The translations under genes and the position numbers were made by a program. The notes below the pieces were generated by a model. That model searched no databases. It was not told the DNA's origin and saw only the letters and a program-made list of their open reading frames with translations. From Chryseobacterium oryctis (lineage in GTDB: Bacteria > Bacteroidota > Bacteroidia > Flavobacteriales > Weeksellaceae), in the NCBI RefSeq assembly GCF_025971925.1, contig NZ_JAPDHV010000001.1, positions 62,001 through 126,000 of the forward strand: a stretch of 64,000 bases of DNA, in the 5' to 3' direction. This document shows positions 2 to 5,622 of this stretch, piece after piece. The first letter of the stretch is position 1, and the number at the start of each line of letters is the position of its first letter.

Positions 2-400
2 AATGGAATACATTTGCTTATTTTTAAAAACAACGCATACTACTCTTTTAATATAAATTCAAATACAGAAACAATACTTGGAGGTTATATTCTTCCTGTA
101 ATAAGTGGAAAATTGATAAGTGATAAATTAACTAATGATCTATATATGATATATAACGATGGTGGAGAATATTATAAAAATACAACATTAGTCACTCCAA
201 ACTCTTATCAATTGCCTTATATTAAGGACTTGTTTGTCTTAGGTAATAATATTTACATGATAAAATACAAATTTGAGTTAGGATATAATGCAAAAGTACT
301 TATCAATGGTGTAGCCTCTCAAGACATAAGTGGTACATTTCAGAATGGAAACCCATATTATACTGGAACATTCAATTCAATTTATGTAGTAGAAAACTAA
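2..400 (+). CDS. C-terminal part of a propeller-repeat lipoprotein (partial)
   Basis: The reading frame is open from base 2, before the first possible start at 14, so the gene is cut by the window edge and only its C-terminal part (about 132 residues) is visible. It holds three copies of the repeat seen in the next two proteins: an (N/D)-(I/L)-Y strand, a short linker, then an aromatic-K-N turn (for example FKNNAYYSF, DLYMIYNDGGEYYKN, NIYMIKYKF). The end resembles both downstream paralogues (KVLINGVASQDI against KVYINNTEVL). It is therefore the first of three tandem paralogues. By analogy the missing part carries a lipoprotein signal and about four more repeats. Function is unknown; a surface or periplasmic beta-propeller is inferred. 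Confidence 0.75.
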   Translation, partial: NGIHLLIFKNNAYYSFNINSNTETILGGYILPVISGKLISDKLTNDLYMIYNDGGEYYKNTTLVTPNSYQLPYIKDLFVLGNNIYMIKYKFELGYNAKVLINGVASQDISGTFQNGNPYYTGTFNSIYVVEN

Positions 401-406
401 AAAACA

Positions 407-443
407 TCAAAAATCTGCAACCTTTTTATTTACTTGCATCTTA
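407..443 (+). promoter_or_regulatory. ECF-type promoter copy 1, before the second propeller lipoprotein
   Basis: The 37 bases match positions 1501-1537 at 35 of 37 sites although both lie between genes. The element has a TGCAACCTTTT block (416-426) and, 15 nt after AAC, CATCTTA (437-443), 19 nt before the ATG at 463. An AAC-containing -35 with a CGTC/CATC-like -10 is the usual shape of ECF sigma promoters; the Bacteroidota housekeeping element TAnnTTTG is absent. Control by the ECF factor encoded at 2629-3723 is inferred. Confidence 0.55.
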
Positions 444-462
444 CTATTATAATTAATCTTCT

Positions 463-1497
463 ATGAAAAAAAAATTACCTTTTTTATTTATATTTATAAT
501 CTTAATTTCCTGTAGACAAAACAATGAAGAAAATTTAGAAAAAAACACCAATGCAATAGATTTATATGTTGCAGGAGCTGAGAATAATAAAGCATGCTAC
601 TGGAAAAACAATCAACAAAACTATCTTTCAGGAGGTGATGATATAATTTCGGCAAATATCACTTTTGAAAACAATAATATTTATCTTACAGGATATAATC
701 AGTTTACAGATGATTTAAAGTTTTTTTGGAAAAACAATGTAAAATATGATATAAGACAATATTTAAATATTTCTTCTAATTTATATTTAAAAATCAGCAA
801 TTTTACTGTAAAAAACAATGATATCTACTTTACTGGTGTTGTGGAAAATCCATCTCCAGCAACATCAAATGATAAATACGAGCATTCTTATTGGAAAAAT
901 GGGGTAAAAACAGTTTTAAACAAATCAGCGAACAAAAATGACGAAGATTTCAGAGTAGGTTCTATTTGCATATACAATTCTAAAGTATATACAATTGGAA
1001 GAAAAACAATAAACAATGTTTTGTATGACGGATATTATGAAGGAATTATTTTCCACGAAATTATACCTGTCTTAAACTCTTCACTGGATAGAATTTGTAA
1101 TTTAGCAACAAACGATAACAATCTTTATGTTTCAGGTCAAAAAAATGGGTTAGCTTTTTATAAAAATCTCTTAACTGGTATTGAAACTCAGCCTAGTCAA
1201 ACTTCACAATTATTTTCTTTTCCTACTATAATTCTTAACGGGAATGATGTTTACACAGTACAATACCAGGGATATTATAAAAACAATGGCACTTATACTC
1301 CCATCACCATCGATCCTGATTACCAATTATGTTCAAAGATGATTATTCTCAATCAAAACTTCTATACAATCAGAATATTTGATTCTAATTACACAGGTGG
1401 AAAAGTTTATATAAACAACGTTCAAGTCATGCATCTTCCTGCTGCACAATTAGGAGTCAAACAAGTATTAACAGATCTTTTTGTAAAAAATAATTAA
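463..1497 (+). CDS. Seven-repeat beta-propeller-like lipoprotein
   Basis: The 344-residue protein starts with a lipoprotein signal: a lysine-rich start, a hydrophobic run and the lipobox LISC near residue 17, so it should be lipid-anchored in the envelope. The mature part contains seven spaced copies of an (D/N)-(L/I/V)-Y-x-x-G strand followed by an aromatic-W/Y-K-N turn (DLYVAGAENNKACYWKNN, NIYLTGYNQ, DIYFTGVVE, KVYTIGRKT, NLYVSGQKNG, DVYTVQYQG, NFYTIRIFD). Seven such four-strand units suggest a seven-bladed beta-propeller (inference). The downstream neighbour is a paralogue with the same repeat plan, and the upstream promoter is a near copy of that gene's promoter. I recognise no characterised family; ligand and role are unknown. 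Confidence 0.8.
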   Translation: MKKKLPFLFIFIILISCRQNNEENLEKNTNAIDLYVAGAENNKACYWKNNQQNYLSGGDDIISANITFENNNIYLTGYNQFTDDLKFFWKNNVKYDIRQYLNISSNLYLKISNFTVKNNDIYFTGVVENPSPATSNDKYEHSYWKNGVKTVLNKSANKNDEDFRVGSICIYNSKVYTIGRKTINNVLYDGYYEGIIFHEIIPVLNSSLDRICNLATNDNNLYVSGQKNGLAFYKNLLTGIETQPSQTSQLFSFPTIILNGNDVYTVQYQGYYKNNGTYTPITIDPDYQLCSKMIILNQNFYTIRIFDSNYTGGKVYINNVQVMHLPAAQLGVKQVLTDLFVKNN

Positions 1498-1500
1498 ACC

Positions 1501-1537
1501 TCAAAAATCTGCAACCTTTTTATTTATTTGAATCTTA
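1501..1537 (+). promoter_or_regulatory. ECF-type promoter copy 2, before the third propeller lipoprotein
   Basis: This is the second copy of the element at 407-443, differing at two positions. It holds TGCAACCTTTT (1510-1520) and AATCTTA (1531-1537), 16 nt before the ATG at 1554. It begins only 3 nt after the previous stop codon, so gene plus promoter seem to have been duplicated as one unit. No copy precedes the sigma gene at 2629, which is probably read through from here. Confidence 0.55.
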
Positions 1538-1553
1538 TAAGAAAATAATAATT

Positions 1554-2624
1554 ATGAAAAATCTTATTTTACCATTTATCTTATTACTCACATTTATGTT
1601 TTCTTGCAGGGAAAATAATATTGATGAAATACTTGAACAAAAATTGAATTCAGTAGATGTATATATTGCAGGAAAAGAAAATAATACTGCTTGCTATTGG
1701 AAAAATAATATTAAAACAAACTTAACTAATGGAACAGGAATAACCGCAAGAAAAATTATTGTTGAGAATAATGATGTTTACGTTTTTGGTACAAGTGATG
1801 TAACTCCATCTAATTTTTATCTTTGGAAAAATAATGTAAAAATAAACATTAACCAGTATATAGGAACGAATTTAAATACAACAAATCCAGCAGATGATTT
1901 TCACAACATTGATGATTTTCTAATAAATCAAGGGAATATTTATCTTTTGGGATATGTACGAAGTCCTATTATCTCAGTACCACCAAGCGGAACTCAATCG
2001 TATACGCGTGAGCTTTGTTATTGGAAAAACGGAATAAAAACAGTATTATTCACTGAAGATCCTTCTTTTTCTTCACCTTTTATTACTACAAGAAATTTTA
2101 CAATTCATAATGGAGATGTATATATTCCCATCAATAAAGGACTTAATAAAATCGTAGATCCTCCATACGAGGTAGGTTATTTTGTAAACAGTACTTATCA
2201 TATGGTTTCGTCTTATTCTGACCAAAAAAGTTTTAGACACATTTCAAAAGGCTCAAACGGTGTATATTTATCAATGTATGATAACAATACAGGTAATACA
2301 TACTATAGAAATCTTATAACTAATACCAATAATTATTTTTCTCAAACGATAAAAGGGAAATTTAATCTTGACGGAAATGATATTTATGACTTCAGCAACG
2401 GGGAACATTTCTTTAAAAATGACATCAATACTCCCCTCATCTATGTCTCAGGATTTAATCATATTGAAGACTTAACAGCACTTAATCAAAATGTTTATCA
2501 AATTAGATCTAAATCTATTAATGATAAGAAAGATTCTTATAAAGTTTACATCAACAATACCGAGGTTCTGCATATTAGCTCCGTAAATGGATTATTTACT
2601 TCAGTCTTCGCCAAACAAAACTAA
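1554..2624 (+). CDS. Seven-repeat beta-propeller-like lipoprotein, paralogue
   Basis: The 356-residue lipoprotein has a signal ending in the lipobox MFSC (Cys near residue 18). It is paralogous to the preceding gene over its whole length: both begin the mature part with a (D)VY/LY-x-AG-x-ENN-ACYWKNN blade. The same seven repeat starts are visible (DVYIAGKEN, DVYVFGTSD, NIYLLGYVR, DVYIPINKG, GVYLSMYDN, DIYDFSNGE, NVYQIRSKS). The stop lies only 4 bases before the sigma factor start, so the two are almost certainly co-transcribed. That coupling, and the ECF-like promoter, suggest the lipoproteins are part of the sigma factor's own regulon. A sensor or ligand-binding role is inference. Confidence 0.8.
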   Translation: MKNLILPFILLLTFMFSCRENNIDEILEQKLNSVDVYIAGKENNTACYWKNNIKTNLTNGTGITARKIIVENNDVYVFGTSDVTPSNFYLWKNNVKININQYIGTNLNTTNPADDFHNIDDFLINQGNIYLLGYVRSPIISVPPSGTQSYTRELCYWKNGIKTVLFTEDPSFSSPFITTRNFTIHNGDVYIPINKGLNKIVDPPYEVGYFVNSTYHMVSSYSDQKSFRHISKGSNGVYLSMYDNNTGNTYYRNLITNTNNYFSQTIKGKFNLDGNDIYDFSNGEHFFKNDINTPLIYVSGFNHIEDLTALNQNVYQIRSKSINDKKDSYKVYINNTEVLHISSVNGLFTSVFAKQN

Positions 2625-2628
2625 TTAA

Positions 2629-3723
2629 ATGTCAAAACTCAACTGGCAAAAGATATACAGTGATTACTCCCCAAAACTTTTGGGGATTTGTCGCAGATAC
2701 ATACAGGATATTTACACCGCTGAAGATATTATACAAGAAAGTTTTATCACTGCAATCCAAAAAAGCAATCAACTTGAAGATGAAAAAGCACTCTTTAGTT
2801 GGCTAAAAAAAATTGTAGTGAATAATGCTTTACAGTATTTACGTAAAAATAATAAAGATATTTTCATAACAACAGAACCTTCAGAACTTCCAGATACATT
2901 TTCAGAGATGGAACCAACTTCTTTAGACAGCAAAAAACACATTCTCATATATGATTTTACGAGGGAAGAACTTCTCTTATCTATCGATAACCTTCCTACT
3001 CATCATAAATCTGTTTTCAATCTATATTTCATTGAAAATTATTCTCACGCGGAAATTTCAACGGCATTAGGAATATCTGTCAATACTTCAAAATCTCATT
3101 TAATGAGAGCCAAAAAATTTATTCAAAATTATTTACTAAAGAATGTAGTTAAGCCAAATACTCCCAAGAAAAAAACATCACAACTTCTTGTCTTTTTCGG
3201 ATTTGGCGGATTACTTTGGGCACAAACATTTCAAAGCAAATTTTCAAACTTTACAATTTCGCCTTCCAAAACCTTAGAAATCCCTTTGGATATTAAAACG
3301 AGTAATGTATCTTTTTCAAATCAAATATTGAAAAATAAAATTATTATCGGAGCTACTTTTTTAGCAATTATCATTATCTCCATCTTTTTATTAAGTCCAA
3401 AAAATTCTTTTTTCAAAAGAAATAATTCAACATTTTCACAGGACTCAGTAAAAGAAAATGCAAATAATAAAACCGAAAATAAGCTTGAGGAACAAGAAAA
3501 AAAATCTATTATAAATTCAAAAGACAGTTTTATTAATCCAAATCAAACAACTGATACTAATAAAAATTTTCCAGAAATAGAAACTTTACCAGAAAAGGAC
3601 GTTCTAAACACTAAGAAAAATTCAAAAAAAATAATTCTCAAGGACTCCATAAAAGAAGTTCCACAAAAAATAATTGTAGTTAAGAAGATCATTCAGAGAG
3701 ATACTATATTTATAGAACAATAA
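2629..3723 (+). CDS. ECF-type sigma-70 factor with C-terminal membrane segment and tail
   Basis: The first ~172 of 364 residues form an ECF sigma factor: region 2 at about 10-74 (YSPKLLGICRRYI, AEDIIQESFITA, FSWLKKIVVNNALQYLRK) and region 4 at about 115-170, with an HTH around HAEISTALGISVNTSKSHLM. ECF proteins usually end there. This one continues for about 190 residues: a short hydrophobic patch (186-199), a strong transmembrane helix at about 236-256 (IIIGATFLAIIIISIFLL), then a hydrophilic Lys/Asn/Glu-rich tail ending IIQRDTIFIEQ. With one helix the tail would be periplasmic and the sigma domain tethered to the inner membrane. It may be a fused anti-sigma or membrane-release device (inference). 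It follows the lipoprotein by 4 bases and precedes the barrel gene by 14. Confidence 0.9.
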   Translation: MSKLNWQKIYSDYSPKLLGICRRYIQDIYTAEDIIQESFITAIQKSNQLEDEKALFSWLKKIVVNNALQYLRKNNKDIFITTEPSELPDTFSEMEPTSLDSKKHILIYDFTREELLLSIDNLPTHHKSVFNLYFIENYSHAEISTALGISVNTSKSHLMRAKKFIQNYLLKNVVKPNTPKKKTSQLLVFFGFGGLLWAQTFQSKFSNFTISPSKTLEIPLDIKTSNVSFSNQILKNKIIIGATFLAIIIISIFLLSPKNSFFKRNNSTFSQDSVKENANNKTENKLEEQEKKSIINSKDSFINPNQTTDTNKNFPEIETLPEKDVLNTKKNSKKIILKDSIKEVPQKIIVVKKIIQRDTIFIEQ

Positions 3724-3737
3724 AACTAATCAGAACC

Positions 3738-4631
3738 ATGCTATTAAGAAGAATAATTTTCTTTTTCTCCGTTATCTTACTAAATTTCTCTTTTGCACAA
3801 AAAAGAAAAAAATTAGATACTGTTTATGTATATGAAAAAGTTACTATCTATGACACTATTTATTTAGAAAAACCTTTAAAATTAAAATCAAATAATTATA
3901 TTTTTTCTCCATCAAAAATAATTGCGAAGGAAATCAAAGACATCTATAAGGAAAATATTGAAAAAAAAGAAATTGAAGAATTAGTCCGAAAAAAAATAAA
4001 TAATAGATTTCAATATGGCATTGAAGCCGGATTTGGCTTCAAAAATACCAATTGGGGAGGAGAACTATTTCGAAAGAAACAACAATTTGGCGAACACATT
4101 GGTGCTTGGATTTCTAAAAGTCTTTCCTTTACACCCAATCTATCTTTACAATTTTCTGCAGATGTTTATCGCTGGAGCTCAACTTTCGACCTTGACGGAA
4201 CAAAAGAAGATACTTTCTTAAACGGATTTTACTTTACAGAAGATAATCAGCCTTTATTATTTCAAAGGTTTAATAATAAACATTTCGAATATGCTCTACA
4301 ATTAAAATTATTATACGAATGGAAAAACATACGACCATTTACAGGGGTTTTAGCAAATCATAGTGCATACAAAATGCAGTTTTTAGTTCCCGAAGATAAC
4401 GTTTTGGATAAACTTGATGATTTTAAAAACAAAGAGATTAATATAGGATTCTCACTAGGAGTTCAATACATTTTTTTAAAACGCTTTATTGTTTCTATTG
4501 AATATCAACAGTATAAAATGAAGAATATTTCGTTAAAAAACAGCAATTTTGATTTTGACATTTTTAAGACTAATAATAACTTTGCGGAACGAAAAATCAA
4601 TTTTGGAATATCTTATATTATATCCAAATAG
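3738..4631 (+). CDS. Secreted, probably outer-membrane beta-barrel protein
   Basis: The 297-residue protein has a Sec signal (hydrophobic core, then FSFAQ around residue 21). A periplasmic linker follows with a VTIYDTIYLEK motif, a coiled-coil-like charged stretch (about 65-90), and from about residue 93 a region of alternating beta strands with aromatic ends (FQYGIEAGFGF, IGAWISKSLSF, LSLQFSADVYRW, FEYALQLKLLYEW, IGFSLGVQYIFL, KINFGISYII). This fits an outer-membrane beta-barrel of PorT-like type. Its DTIYL motif echoes the DTIFIEQ end of the sigma factor 14 bases upstream. In many Bacteroidota an ECF gene is followed by a protein combining anti-sigma, membrane helix and barrel; here the membrane helix sits on the sigma factor instead. 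Function is inferred. Confidence 0.7.
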   Translation: MLLRRIIFFFSVILLNFSFAQKRKKLDTVYVYEKVTIYDTIYLEKPLKLKSNNYIFSPSKIIAKEIKDIYKENIEKKEIEELVRKKINNRFQYGIEAGFGFKNTNWGGELFRKKQQFGEHIGAWISKSLSFTPNLSLQFSADVYRWSSTFDLDGTKEDTFLNGFYFTEDNQPLLFQRFNNKHFEYALQLKLLYEWKNIRPFTGVLANHSAYKMQFLVPEDNVLDKLDDFKNKEINIGFSLGVQYIFLKRFIVSIEYQQYKMKNISLKNSNFDFDIFKTNNNFAERKINFGISYIISK

Positions 4632-4656: not shown

Positions 4657-5622
4657 ATGATTTATTTCAAATTTCCATTCGACGAAAAGCTATATTCTGT
4701 AGACAAAAAAAACAATCAAAAAGCAATTAACTTTTATTCTTTTGACGGTATAAAACAAGTTAGTTTTGATGGAAATATTGTTGAAATAAATTCCGAAGAT
4801 TTTCAAAAAACTGATTTCAACTCTTTACCTGAAGATAAAAATGGATTTATCCCTGAAACAAAAGAAGAATACCTGAATAAGATTGAAAAAGTAATTGAGA
4901 TTATTAAACAAAATAATCTCCCAAAAATGGTATATTCCAGAAGAAAAATTTTCTCAGATTTTAATGAAATTGATTTAAAAGAAAGCTTTTCTAATTTATG
5001 TAAATCGTATCCAAATGCTTTCAGATATATCTTTATTGACGGTGAAAATTCCTGGATGGGAGCTTTTTCTGAAGTTTTAGGAAAATTCAATAAAATAACT
5101 CATGAGTTTGAAACAATGAGCCTCGCAGGAACACTTCCTGTTTCAGAAAATTGGTCTGAAAAAGAAATTGAAGAACAAAAACCAGTCTCCTCTTATATTC
5201 GAAATATTTTAAATAATTATTCAGAAAACATTTATGAATCTGAAACTCGCGACCATATTTCGGGAAATATTAAACACTTAAGAACAGATTTTAAAACAAA
5301 GATAAATGTAAAAGATGTGGATAAAATAATTCTCGATTTGCATCCTACACCCGCTGTTTGCGGAATTCCGAAAGAGTTCTGCAAAGAAAATATTGAAAAG
5401 CTGGAGAAATTCTCACGAGAATTATATGCCGGATATATTAAAATTGAAACAGAAGAAAGCATCCAATATTTCGTAAATCTACGTTGTGCCAAGTTATATA
5501 AAAAATCCGTTCATTTGTTTGTAGGAGGAGGAATTACAGCTCAAAGCAATCCTGAGAAAGAATGGACTGAAACTGAATTGAAATCTGAGGCTGTTTTAAA
5601 GAACCTCAAAATTATCAAATAA
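4657..5622 (+). CDS. menF: Isochorismate synthase (chorismate-binding family)
   Basis: The protein converts chorismate to isochorismate, the first committed step to menaquinone, in the cytoplasm. The 321-residue product has the chorismate-binding domain in its C-terminal two thirds: MVYSRRKI, SLAGTLPV, the signature PTPAVCGIPKE (a Cys where Gly is usual), ELYAGYIKIE, VNLRCAKLY, and the terminal GGGITAQSNPEKEW with following acidic and Lys residues. It is shorter than E. coli MenF, having a reduced N-terminal part, which I believe is common in flavobacteria. The other menaquinone gene here, menC, lies 23 kb away. A siderophore-type EntC role cannot be excluded, but no siderophore genes are nearby. 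Confidence 0.85.
   Translation: MIYFKFPFDEKLYSVDKKNNQKAINFYSFDGIKQVSFDGNIVEINSEDFQKTDFNSLPEDKNGFIPETKEEYLNKIEKVIEIIKQNNLPKMVYSRRKIFSDFNEIDLKESFSNLCKSYPNAFRYIFIDGENSWMGAFSEVLGKFNKITHEFETMSLAGTLPVSENWSEKEIEEQKPVSSYIRNILNNYSENIYESETRDHISGNIKHLRTDFKTKINVKDVDKIILDLHPTPAVCGIPKEFCKENIEKLEKFSRELYAGYIKIETEESIQYFVNLRCAKLYKKSVHLFVGGGITAQSNPEKEWTETELKSEAVLKNLKIIK

Follow-up and report, generated by a model that had tools for sequence, protein, structure and literature searches.

Dma proteins, recently described in Bacteroidota, are anti-sigma factors made as one chain that runs from the cytoplasm to an outer-membrane barrel; the accessible part of the paper describing them leaves open which cue Dma2 of Bacteroides thetaiotaomicron senses and does not deal with proteolytic release (PMC13088901). 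IutY of Pseudomonas putida, an ECF243 sigma/anti-sigma hybrid (ECF, extracytoplasmic function), holds sigma factor and membrane regulator in one chain which, according to the accessible text, is trimmed by Prc and cut by RseP (PMC5411451). The ECF48, ECF52 and ECF53 sigma factors of Actinobacteria (e.g. SCO4117) carry a C-terminal membrane-anchored extension, and Table 2 of the same source, in its accessible part, lists an extension of unstudied mechanism for 'certain members' of ECF240, with SIO28919.1 of Chryseobacterium scophthalmum as the model (PMC8999054). In Phocaeicola, a toxin induces a sigma/anti-sigma pair that has a barrel end, probably via envelope stress, as far as the available part of that report goes (PMC9308784). 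The present study concerns a lipoprotein-sigma-barrel operon at the start of a stretch of Chryseobacterium oryctis DNA (contig NZ_JAPDHV010000001.1, positions 62,001-126,000, G000:C11:62001-126000), which at its full length of 64,000 nucleotides is called the window below. Its parts are of known kinds, and I consider it moderately likely that together they form a split relative of the Das/Dma proteins whose halves rejoin without a covalent bond, with release by proteolysis in the manner of IutY. No description of a sigma/anti-sigma fusion of this arrangement in Bacteroidota was found in the open literature searched. The ECF240 model SIO28919.1, likened here by its listing alone, may be an orthologue or belong to the same family, which lowers the claim of first sight for the fusion and leaves that for the mechanism.

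The window opens inside the operon, which lies on the plus strand throughout and reads short lipoprotein (151 amino acids, aa), three propeller lipoproteins, sigma gene and barrel gene, with 4 bp between the last lipoprotein gene and the sigma gene and 14 bp between the sigma and barrel genes. The sigma gene (2629-3723) encodes 364 aa, in which Pfam recognised sigma regions 2 and 4 only, as expected of an ECF sigma factor (region 2, residues 10-75, 2656-2853, PF04542, E 1.2e-12; region 4, residues 113-164, 2965-3120, PF08281, E 1.4e-13). Region 4 is followed by a putative anti-sigma linker (residues 183-216, 3175-3276) in which the hydrophobic helix GFGGLLWAQ precedes the Dma-type motif TFQSKFSNFTISPSKTL, by a single predicted transmembrane helix (residues 236-256, 3334-3396), by a variable tether rich in K, S, N and E (residues 257-338, 3397-3642), and by a C-terminal 18-mer within a conserved tail end (residues 347-364, 3667-3720). 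A first-pass annotation of the stretch had reported five same-strand open reading frames (ORFs) for propeller lipoproteins, sigma factor and barrel, a normal ECF sigma factor and a transmembrane helix at residues 236-256, and saw in them a membrane-tethered ECF sigma factor with a separate barrel. These observations were confirmed and the layout recurs in other genomes, since at 26 of 29 non-redundant loci the fetched DNA includes a gene for a propeller lipoprotein; the interpretation offered with them was partly supported.

Full-length copies of the sigma fusion were present in 77 of the 296 genomes sampled from the family (the other 219 being non-carriers), as frames of 353-412 aa free of stops in all 77. 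At 12 named loci, all in Chryseobacterium, the match to the sigma protein was nearly end to end, with 52-64% identity in the best segment. Among 29 non-redundant homologues, mean pairwise identity was 0.66 in region 2, 0.77 in region 4 and 0.63 over residues 183-213, fell to 0.32 in the helix and 0.125 in the tether, and returned to 0.66 over residues 345-363, so that a long variable tether closes in a short segment conserved to the same degree as the sigma domain. This alignment leaves out L037, L040, L028 and L029 as duplicates of L010, L012 and L027, and contains two rows with late starts (L025 and L032), in which region 2 is partly gapped and identity therefore slightly underestimated. The fused sigma factors formed one group with support of 97/99 in a tree of 22 sigma sequences, and no orthologue of the extension was found outside the family among 395 genomes drawn from the order and 335 from the phylum, two draws that overlap.

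Estimated insertion energy was favourable for segment 236-256 in 26 of the 29 homologues, on a hydrophobicity scale and with weights set by the analyst. AlphaFold2 placed a helix at residues 232-255, at low confidence, and gave residues 255-364 a pLDDT below 50 in a model that is poor as a whole (pLDDT 47.6). One membrane pass with the sigma tail outside is the most likely topology on these predictions, and one transmembrane helix followed by a long, probably disordered tether is what the Dma layout has as well. A fold search with the sigma model returned almost only sigma-factor chains and regulators, and nothing beyond Pfam. A sub-threshold SieB match (PF14163, E 7.6e-4, residues 229-346) was set aside as a match to the helix and low-complexity tether.

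Compared with IutY, the sigma protein has the same one-chain arrangement of sigma factor, one (here predicted) transmembrane helix and periplasmic part, and an outer-membrane protein as partner, in so far as the accessible parts of the sources describe it (PMC5411451, PMC8999054). It differs in that neither the sigma nor the barrel protein has a FecR- or STN-type Pfam match at E<=1, in that the partner is a 297-aa barrel and not a TonB-dependent receptor, and in that the periplasmic part consists of a variable tether and the 18-mer, while a Dma-type motif is present on the cytoplasmic side. With Dma1 and Dma2, as laid out in the accessible text, the locus has in common an anti-sigma element, one transmembrane helix, a tether, an outer-membrane barrel and lipoprotein genes nearby (PMC13088901). 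Whereas the Dma layout has a separate adjacent ECF21 sigma factor and a C-terminal barrel on the anti-sigma chain, here the anti-sigma element, helix and tether are on the sigma chain itself and a separate barrel is encoded downstream in the 77 carriers. The ECF48, ECF52 and ECF53 proteins resemble the fusion in their anchored extension, yet theirs carry a zinc-finger according to the accessible part of the source (PMC8999054), whereas the sigma protein has no zinc-finger Pfam match and no cysteine after residue 21, its only one, which lies in region 2.

The first-pass annotation had placed the membrane helix on the sigma factor and the barrel on its own, where the usual Bacteroidota layout has a separate anti-sigma/membrane/barrel protein; the fusion stands, but an anti-sigma motif between region 4 and the helix had been overlooked. 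A profile of the extension, built from 19 rows and searched in the 395 order genomes at E<=1e-3, matched 24 genomes, 20 with orthologues and four with other proteins of another family (505-534 aa, E 1.4e-5 to 5.1e-4). All four of these have the Dma layout, in which an N-terminal element like NIDRLFQEKFKDFE(I/V)xP is followed by a hydrophobic helix, an extended region of low complexity and an end resembling a barrel. Each is encoded immediately behind an ECF sigma gene, which itself comes after the gene for a small lipoprotein. Because the tether is of low complexity, the linker was tested alone: a linker-only model (residues 183-235) placed three of the four Dma-layout proteins at ranks 1-3 (E 0.0029, 0.016 and 0.042) in the 3628 ORFs of the fetched loci, with the fusions set aside. 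A reverse model made from the N-terminal 40 residues of each of the four proteins, which is free of the selection bias of the linker-only ranking, placed its own sequences at ranks 1-4, followed by a presumed anti-sigma factor of this genome (rank 5) and by sigma-fusion ORFs (ranks 6-25), with E values of 0.004 to 1.1 for the presumed anti-sigma factor and the fusions, many of which are near-relatives. Aligned with hhalign, the linker profile matched the Dma-layout profile at 92.9% (E 3.7e-7), and none of 400 column permutations reached the real linker score (18.0 versus a maximum of 6.7). By this motif, common to three or four of the Dma-layout proteins, the linker between region 4 and the transmembrane helix is predicted to be a Dma-type cytoplasmic anti-sigma element, which would make the protein a sigma factor that carries the inner half of a Dma-like protein, with the barrel separate.

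Three other loci of presumed regulators were seen alongside this comparison. The rank-5 protein belongs to a locus (L048:1633-6067) with an ECF sigma gene, the presumed anti-sigma factor itself, which ends in a TonB plug (PF07715, E 2.1e-13), and a 922-aa protein. A Dma-layout locus of the same genome (L049:4194-6837) has a lipoprotein-like gene, a sigma gene and a 459-aa protein that combines a helix, a tether and a barrel (PF13568, E 4e-14); its protein P0001 had a full-length relative in one further genome of 60. The 179-aa protein downstream of the ECF gene at L045 was tried against the linker and did not match (0.5%).

The barrel gene (3738-4631) encodes an outer-membrane beta-barrel protein of 297 aa by its Pfam match to OMP_b-brl (PF13505, E 5.7e-6), which at 27.0 bits is below the cut-off of 28.7; its profile had no match at E<=1 among PDB sequences. 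Barrel matches in the 296 family genomes were split by the analyst into long ones (at least 177 residues) and remnants (at most 106 residues). A long match was present in exactly the 77 carriers of the sigma fusion, with no discordant genome, while 57 sigma-less genomes had only a 3' barrel remnant at E<=1e-3, many of these with stops. The remnant lay between the usual neighbours of the island in all four such genomes fetched (L079 in G197, L080 in G228, L081 in G219 and L083 in G284), and in G197, G219 and G228 a match to the promoter described below still stood 2 to 135 bp before it. The island thus seems to have been deleted, or to be decaying, in part of the genus.

Conservation within the barrel protein, in an alignment of 27 rows from which L022 and L023 were removed for starts called too late, is highest in the mature N-terminal segment (residues 27-45, DTVYVYEKVTIYDTIYLEK, 3816-3872), with a mean identity of 0.75 compared to 0.17 in the linker behind it and 0.60 in the barrel. 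The two 18-mers of the window, KIIVVKKIIQRDTIFIEQ of the sigma tail and TVYVYEKVTIYDTIYLEK of the barrel protein, align gaplessly with six identities. When a model of the sigma tails was run on the barrel N-termini, again without the rows L022 and L023, none of 400 permutations reached the best score and one of 400 reached the mean, and the motif that the first-pass annotation had noticed in both the sigma tail end and the barrel linker is therefore above a composition-matched control. A regular expression for the DT motif, composed after the sequences were seen, matched in the 3628 ORFs only sigma tails (26, plus two fragments of broken copies) and barrels (18). Judged by their sequences, the sigma and barrel 18-mers may pair in the periplasm.

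Upstream of the lipoprotein genes stands a putative two-block promoter, TGCAACCTTTTT-N9-CATCTTA. All three propeller genes have it with no more than one mismatch, at a distance of 42-47 bp between its first base and their ATG (at G000:C11:61315, outside the window, for lipoprotein 1; at 416-443 on the plus strand, as TGCAACCTTTTTATTTACTTGCATCTTA, 47 bp before lipoprotein 2; and at 1510-1537 on the plus strand, with one mismatch, before lipoprotein 3), and the short lipoprotein gene has it at 56 bp. These four putative promoters of the fused sigma factor are the only matches in this genome with at most one mismatch, and all are inside the island; six further matches, all with three mismatches, are not above background because a reversed-pattern control gave 10. 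Across the 29 non-redundant loci, the promoter was found within 200 bp of 26 of 31 propeller genes and nine of 10 short lipoprotein genes. A match was present in 76 of 77 carriers versus 16 of 219 non-carriers (Fisher p 2.5e-53, uncorrected for relatedness), and in 75 of the 77 carriers one was no more than 6 kb away from the sigma gene; of the two others, G012 has its sole match away from the sigma locus and G186 has a three-mismatch copy before its lipoprotein gene.

The carriers had 15 promoter matches away from the sigma locus, a count that leaves out six matches on the duplicated contig C2 of G206. One of them, in G261, is 43 bp upstream of a propeller gene on another contig, and one in G151 (L072:908-2894) is 67 bp before a 639-aa lipoprotein-like gene, also on another contig and OmpA-like by eye, which is a possible further target of the fused sigma factor. 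Among the other distant matches (G012, G024, G047, G220, G254, G262, G268 and G290), those followed had no clear target. Contig C2 of G206 (27.8 kb; L028 and L029) contains three extra island copies with one intact and two broken sigma genes, which either arose by amplification or are an artefact of assembly. Ahead of the lipoprotein genes, the four Dma-layout loci carry GCAACC-N15-CATCT and the fusion system carries GCAACC-N14-CATCT, and the reversed pattern gave no match in 717 kb of fetched loci; the near-identical promoter therefore ties the fused sigma factor to the Dma-layout loci independently of the protein comparison. At the fetched loci of this genome's remaining ECF genes, the promoter was not found.

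The lipoproteins themselves look like the output of the switch and not like an essential part of it or its source of signal, because they carry the promoter and are variable or missing while the sigma-barrel pair is invariant. A strong propeller match (E <1e-40) was found in 69 of 77 carriers and one of 219 non-carriers, which leaves eight carriers without one. The first-pass annotation, in which the lipoproteins were the signal source, thus probably had the direction the wrong way round. It had also described them as seven-repeat propellers. For lipoprotein 3 (356 aa, 1554-2624, plus strand) this was borne out by AlphaFold2 (pLDDT 79.7, pTM 0.80), with seven blades counted from the strand list, and by BtuG1 as the best fold match (VIA Z 20.0, rmsd 3.9, 271 aligned residues, 13% identity), although many unrelated propellers also scored VIA Z 17-19. 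Lipoprotein 2 (344 aa, 463-1497, plus strand) is assigned by its similarity to lipoprotein 3. A seven-bladed propeller is common to these proteins and the BtuG surface lipoproteins, and the shared fold shows no function. Lipoprotein 1 is cut by the window edge, which leaves its 3' part at 2-400 on the plus strand, and is complete at L009:9357-10400 (347 aa). The short lipoprotein, an ORF on the plus strand upstream of the window (L009:8852-9307), has a weak match to PrcB_C (PF14343, E 1.1e-4, 22.7 bits with a cut-off of 24).

The fusion, the anti-sigma motif, the two 18-mers, the strict co-occurrence of sigma factor and barrel, and the promoter with its targets are supported by computation, and the following mechanism could be built on them. 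One chain would comprise the ECF sigma factor, a Dma-type cytoplasmic anti-sigma element, the transmembrane helix, a probably disordered tether and a strand-forming C-terminal 18-mer, and a second protein would be an outer-membrane barrel that has a similar 18-mer at its mature N-terminus, on a variable linker of its own. At rest, the anti-sigma element would prevent the sigma domains from engaging RNA polymerase, and pairing of the two 18-mers in the periplasm would connect both membranes and shield the free C-terminus of the sigma chain. If the barrel were missing, misassembled or bound by a signal, this C-terminus would be exposed and trimmed, and the trimmed stub could then be cut in the membrane by an RseP-type protease, releasing the sigma factor. 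The released sigma factor would transcribe its own operon from the promoters described above and thereby produce the propeller lipoproteins, with readthrough from the lipoprotein promoters giving more sigma factor and barrel. Proteolysis of the fusion is suggested by analogy with IutY, and the signal, which might by a similar analogy be damage to the outer membrane, is most likely the failure or occupation of the outer-membrane partner.

Several observations weigh against a split Dma relative of this kind. The likeness to the named proteins Dma1 and Dma2 is one of described layout and not of their sequences, and the linker motif and the promoter are common to some Dma-layout loci only: P0001, the Dma-layout protein of this genome at L049, is without the linker motif (hhalign 0.5%), and the promoter was not found at its locus, although the hhalign controls (P0001 and L045) are single sequences and thus weaker than a profile. 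The barrel gave 3.8% in hhalign with the four Dma-layout barrels, which is no detectable relation. In the 335 phylum genomes, two unrelated proteins were also hit by the extension profile, at E 9e-5 and 4e-4, and its E values near 1e-5 therefore prove little on their own; the four loci ranked by the linker-only model were present because this profile had found them, and five of 28 traced fusion ORFs were at noise in the reverse model (ranks 159 to 1603). Divergent carriers at L022-L024 have a sigma 18-mer without the DT pair while their barrel keeps DT, and sigma factor and barrel may co-occur in these related genomes because they were inherited together. Finally, the poor AlphaFold2 model of the sigma protein shows no packing of the linker on the sigma domains, and the sister of the fused sigma factors is left unresolved by the sigma tree, in which branches are long.

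The best surviving alternative, unlikely as it is, holds that the sigma factor works while tethered, with barrel and tail shifting its conformation or position and no proteolysis taking place. No gene of the operon was recognised as a protease, as judged by size, similarity and reading only, and the hydrophobic helix and motif at residues 183-213 are unusually conserved (0.63), both of which would suit such a switch; in contrast, IutY as the closest studied fusion requires Prc and RseP in the accessible text (PMC5411451), and one gene for an M50 (RseP-type) protease is present in this genome. About as unlikely is that barrel and lipoproteins are only co-transcribed cargo and that the sigma factor answers to something else via its periplasmic tail. 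The 18-mer contact is read from sequence, and barrel and sigma factor are inherited as a block, yet conservation is higher in the N-terminal barrel segment than in the barrel, the likeness of this segment to the sigma tail end exceeds that of permuted controls, and sigma-less genomes retain at most a barrel remnant. A slightly poorer chance still is given to two membrane passes, in which segment LLVFLGFGGLLWA (residues 183-199) also crosses, so that tail and 18-mer would be cytoplasmic and the barrel out of reach. This segment is hydrophobic, is usually preceded by lysines and resembles the end of a Bacteroidota signal peptide; its estimated insertion energy, however, was unfavourable in 29 of 29 homologues on the same scale and analyst's weights that favoured 236-256, the homologue at L036 has an arginine within it, and in the Dma layout, as described in the accessible text, the motif behind it is a component of the cytoplasmic anti-sigma portion (PMC13088901). 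A frame error or gene-calling artefact joining two genes, which the first-pass annotation had expected to show as homologues with a separate sigma gene ending at about residue 175, was rejected as next to impossible, since nothing was found for it and the long frame is open in every one of the 77 carriers.

Two features border the island. In several genomes, a gene for a helix-turn-helix regulator-like protein and three genes for small secreted-looking proteins are inserted beside it (L020:9964-11995, L027:9603-11945, L033:2817-5169 and L011:8778-11122). In the window, the barrel gene is followed by a gene at 4657-5622 that is presumably an isochorismate synthase.

The split Dma relative released by proteolysis would imply a trans-envelope chain without a covalent bond: a Dma-type connection would have been cut in the tether, with the sigma factor taking over the inner half and similar strand-forming 18-mers rejoining the ends, and loss of the outer-membrane partner would itself be the signal that frees the sigma factor. 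I regard this as a tentative proposal that falls somewhat short of an even chance. Its value is that a natural two-protein version would make it testable whether the link between the membranes is itself the sensor, as the halves can be deleted, truncated and expressed apart, and the promoter supplies a reporter.

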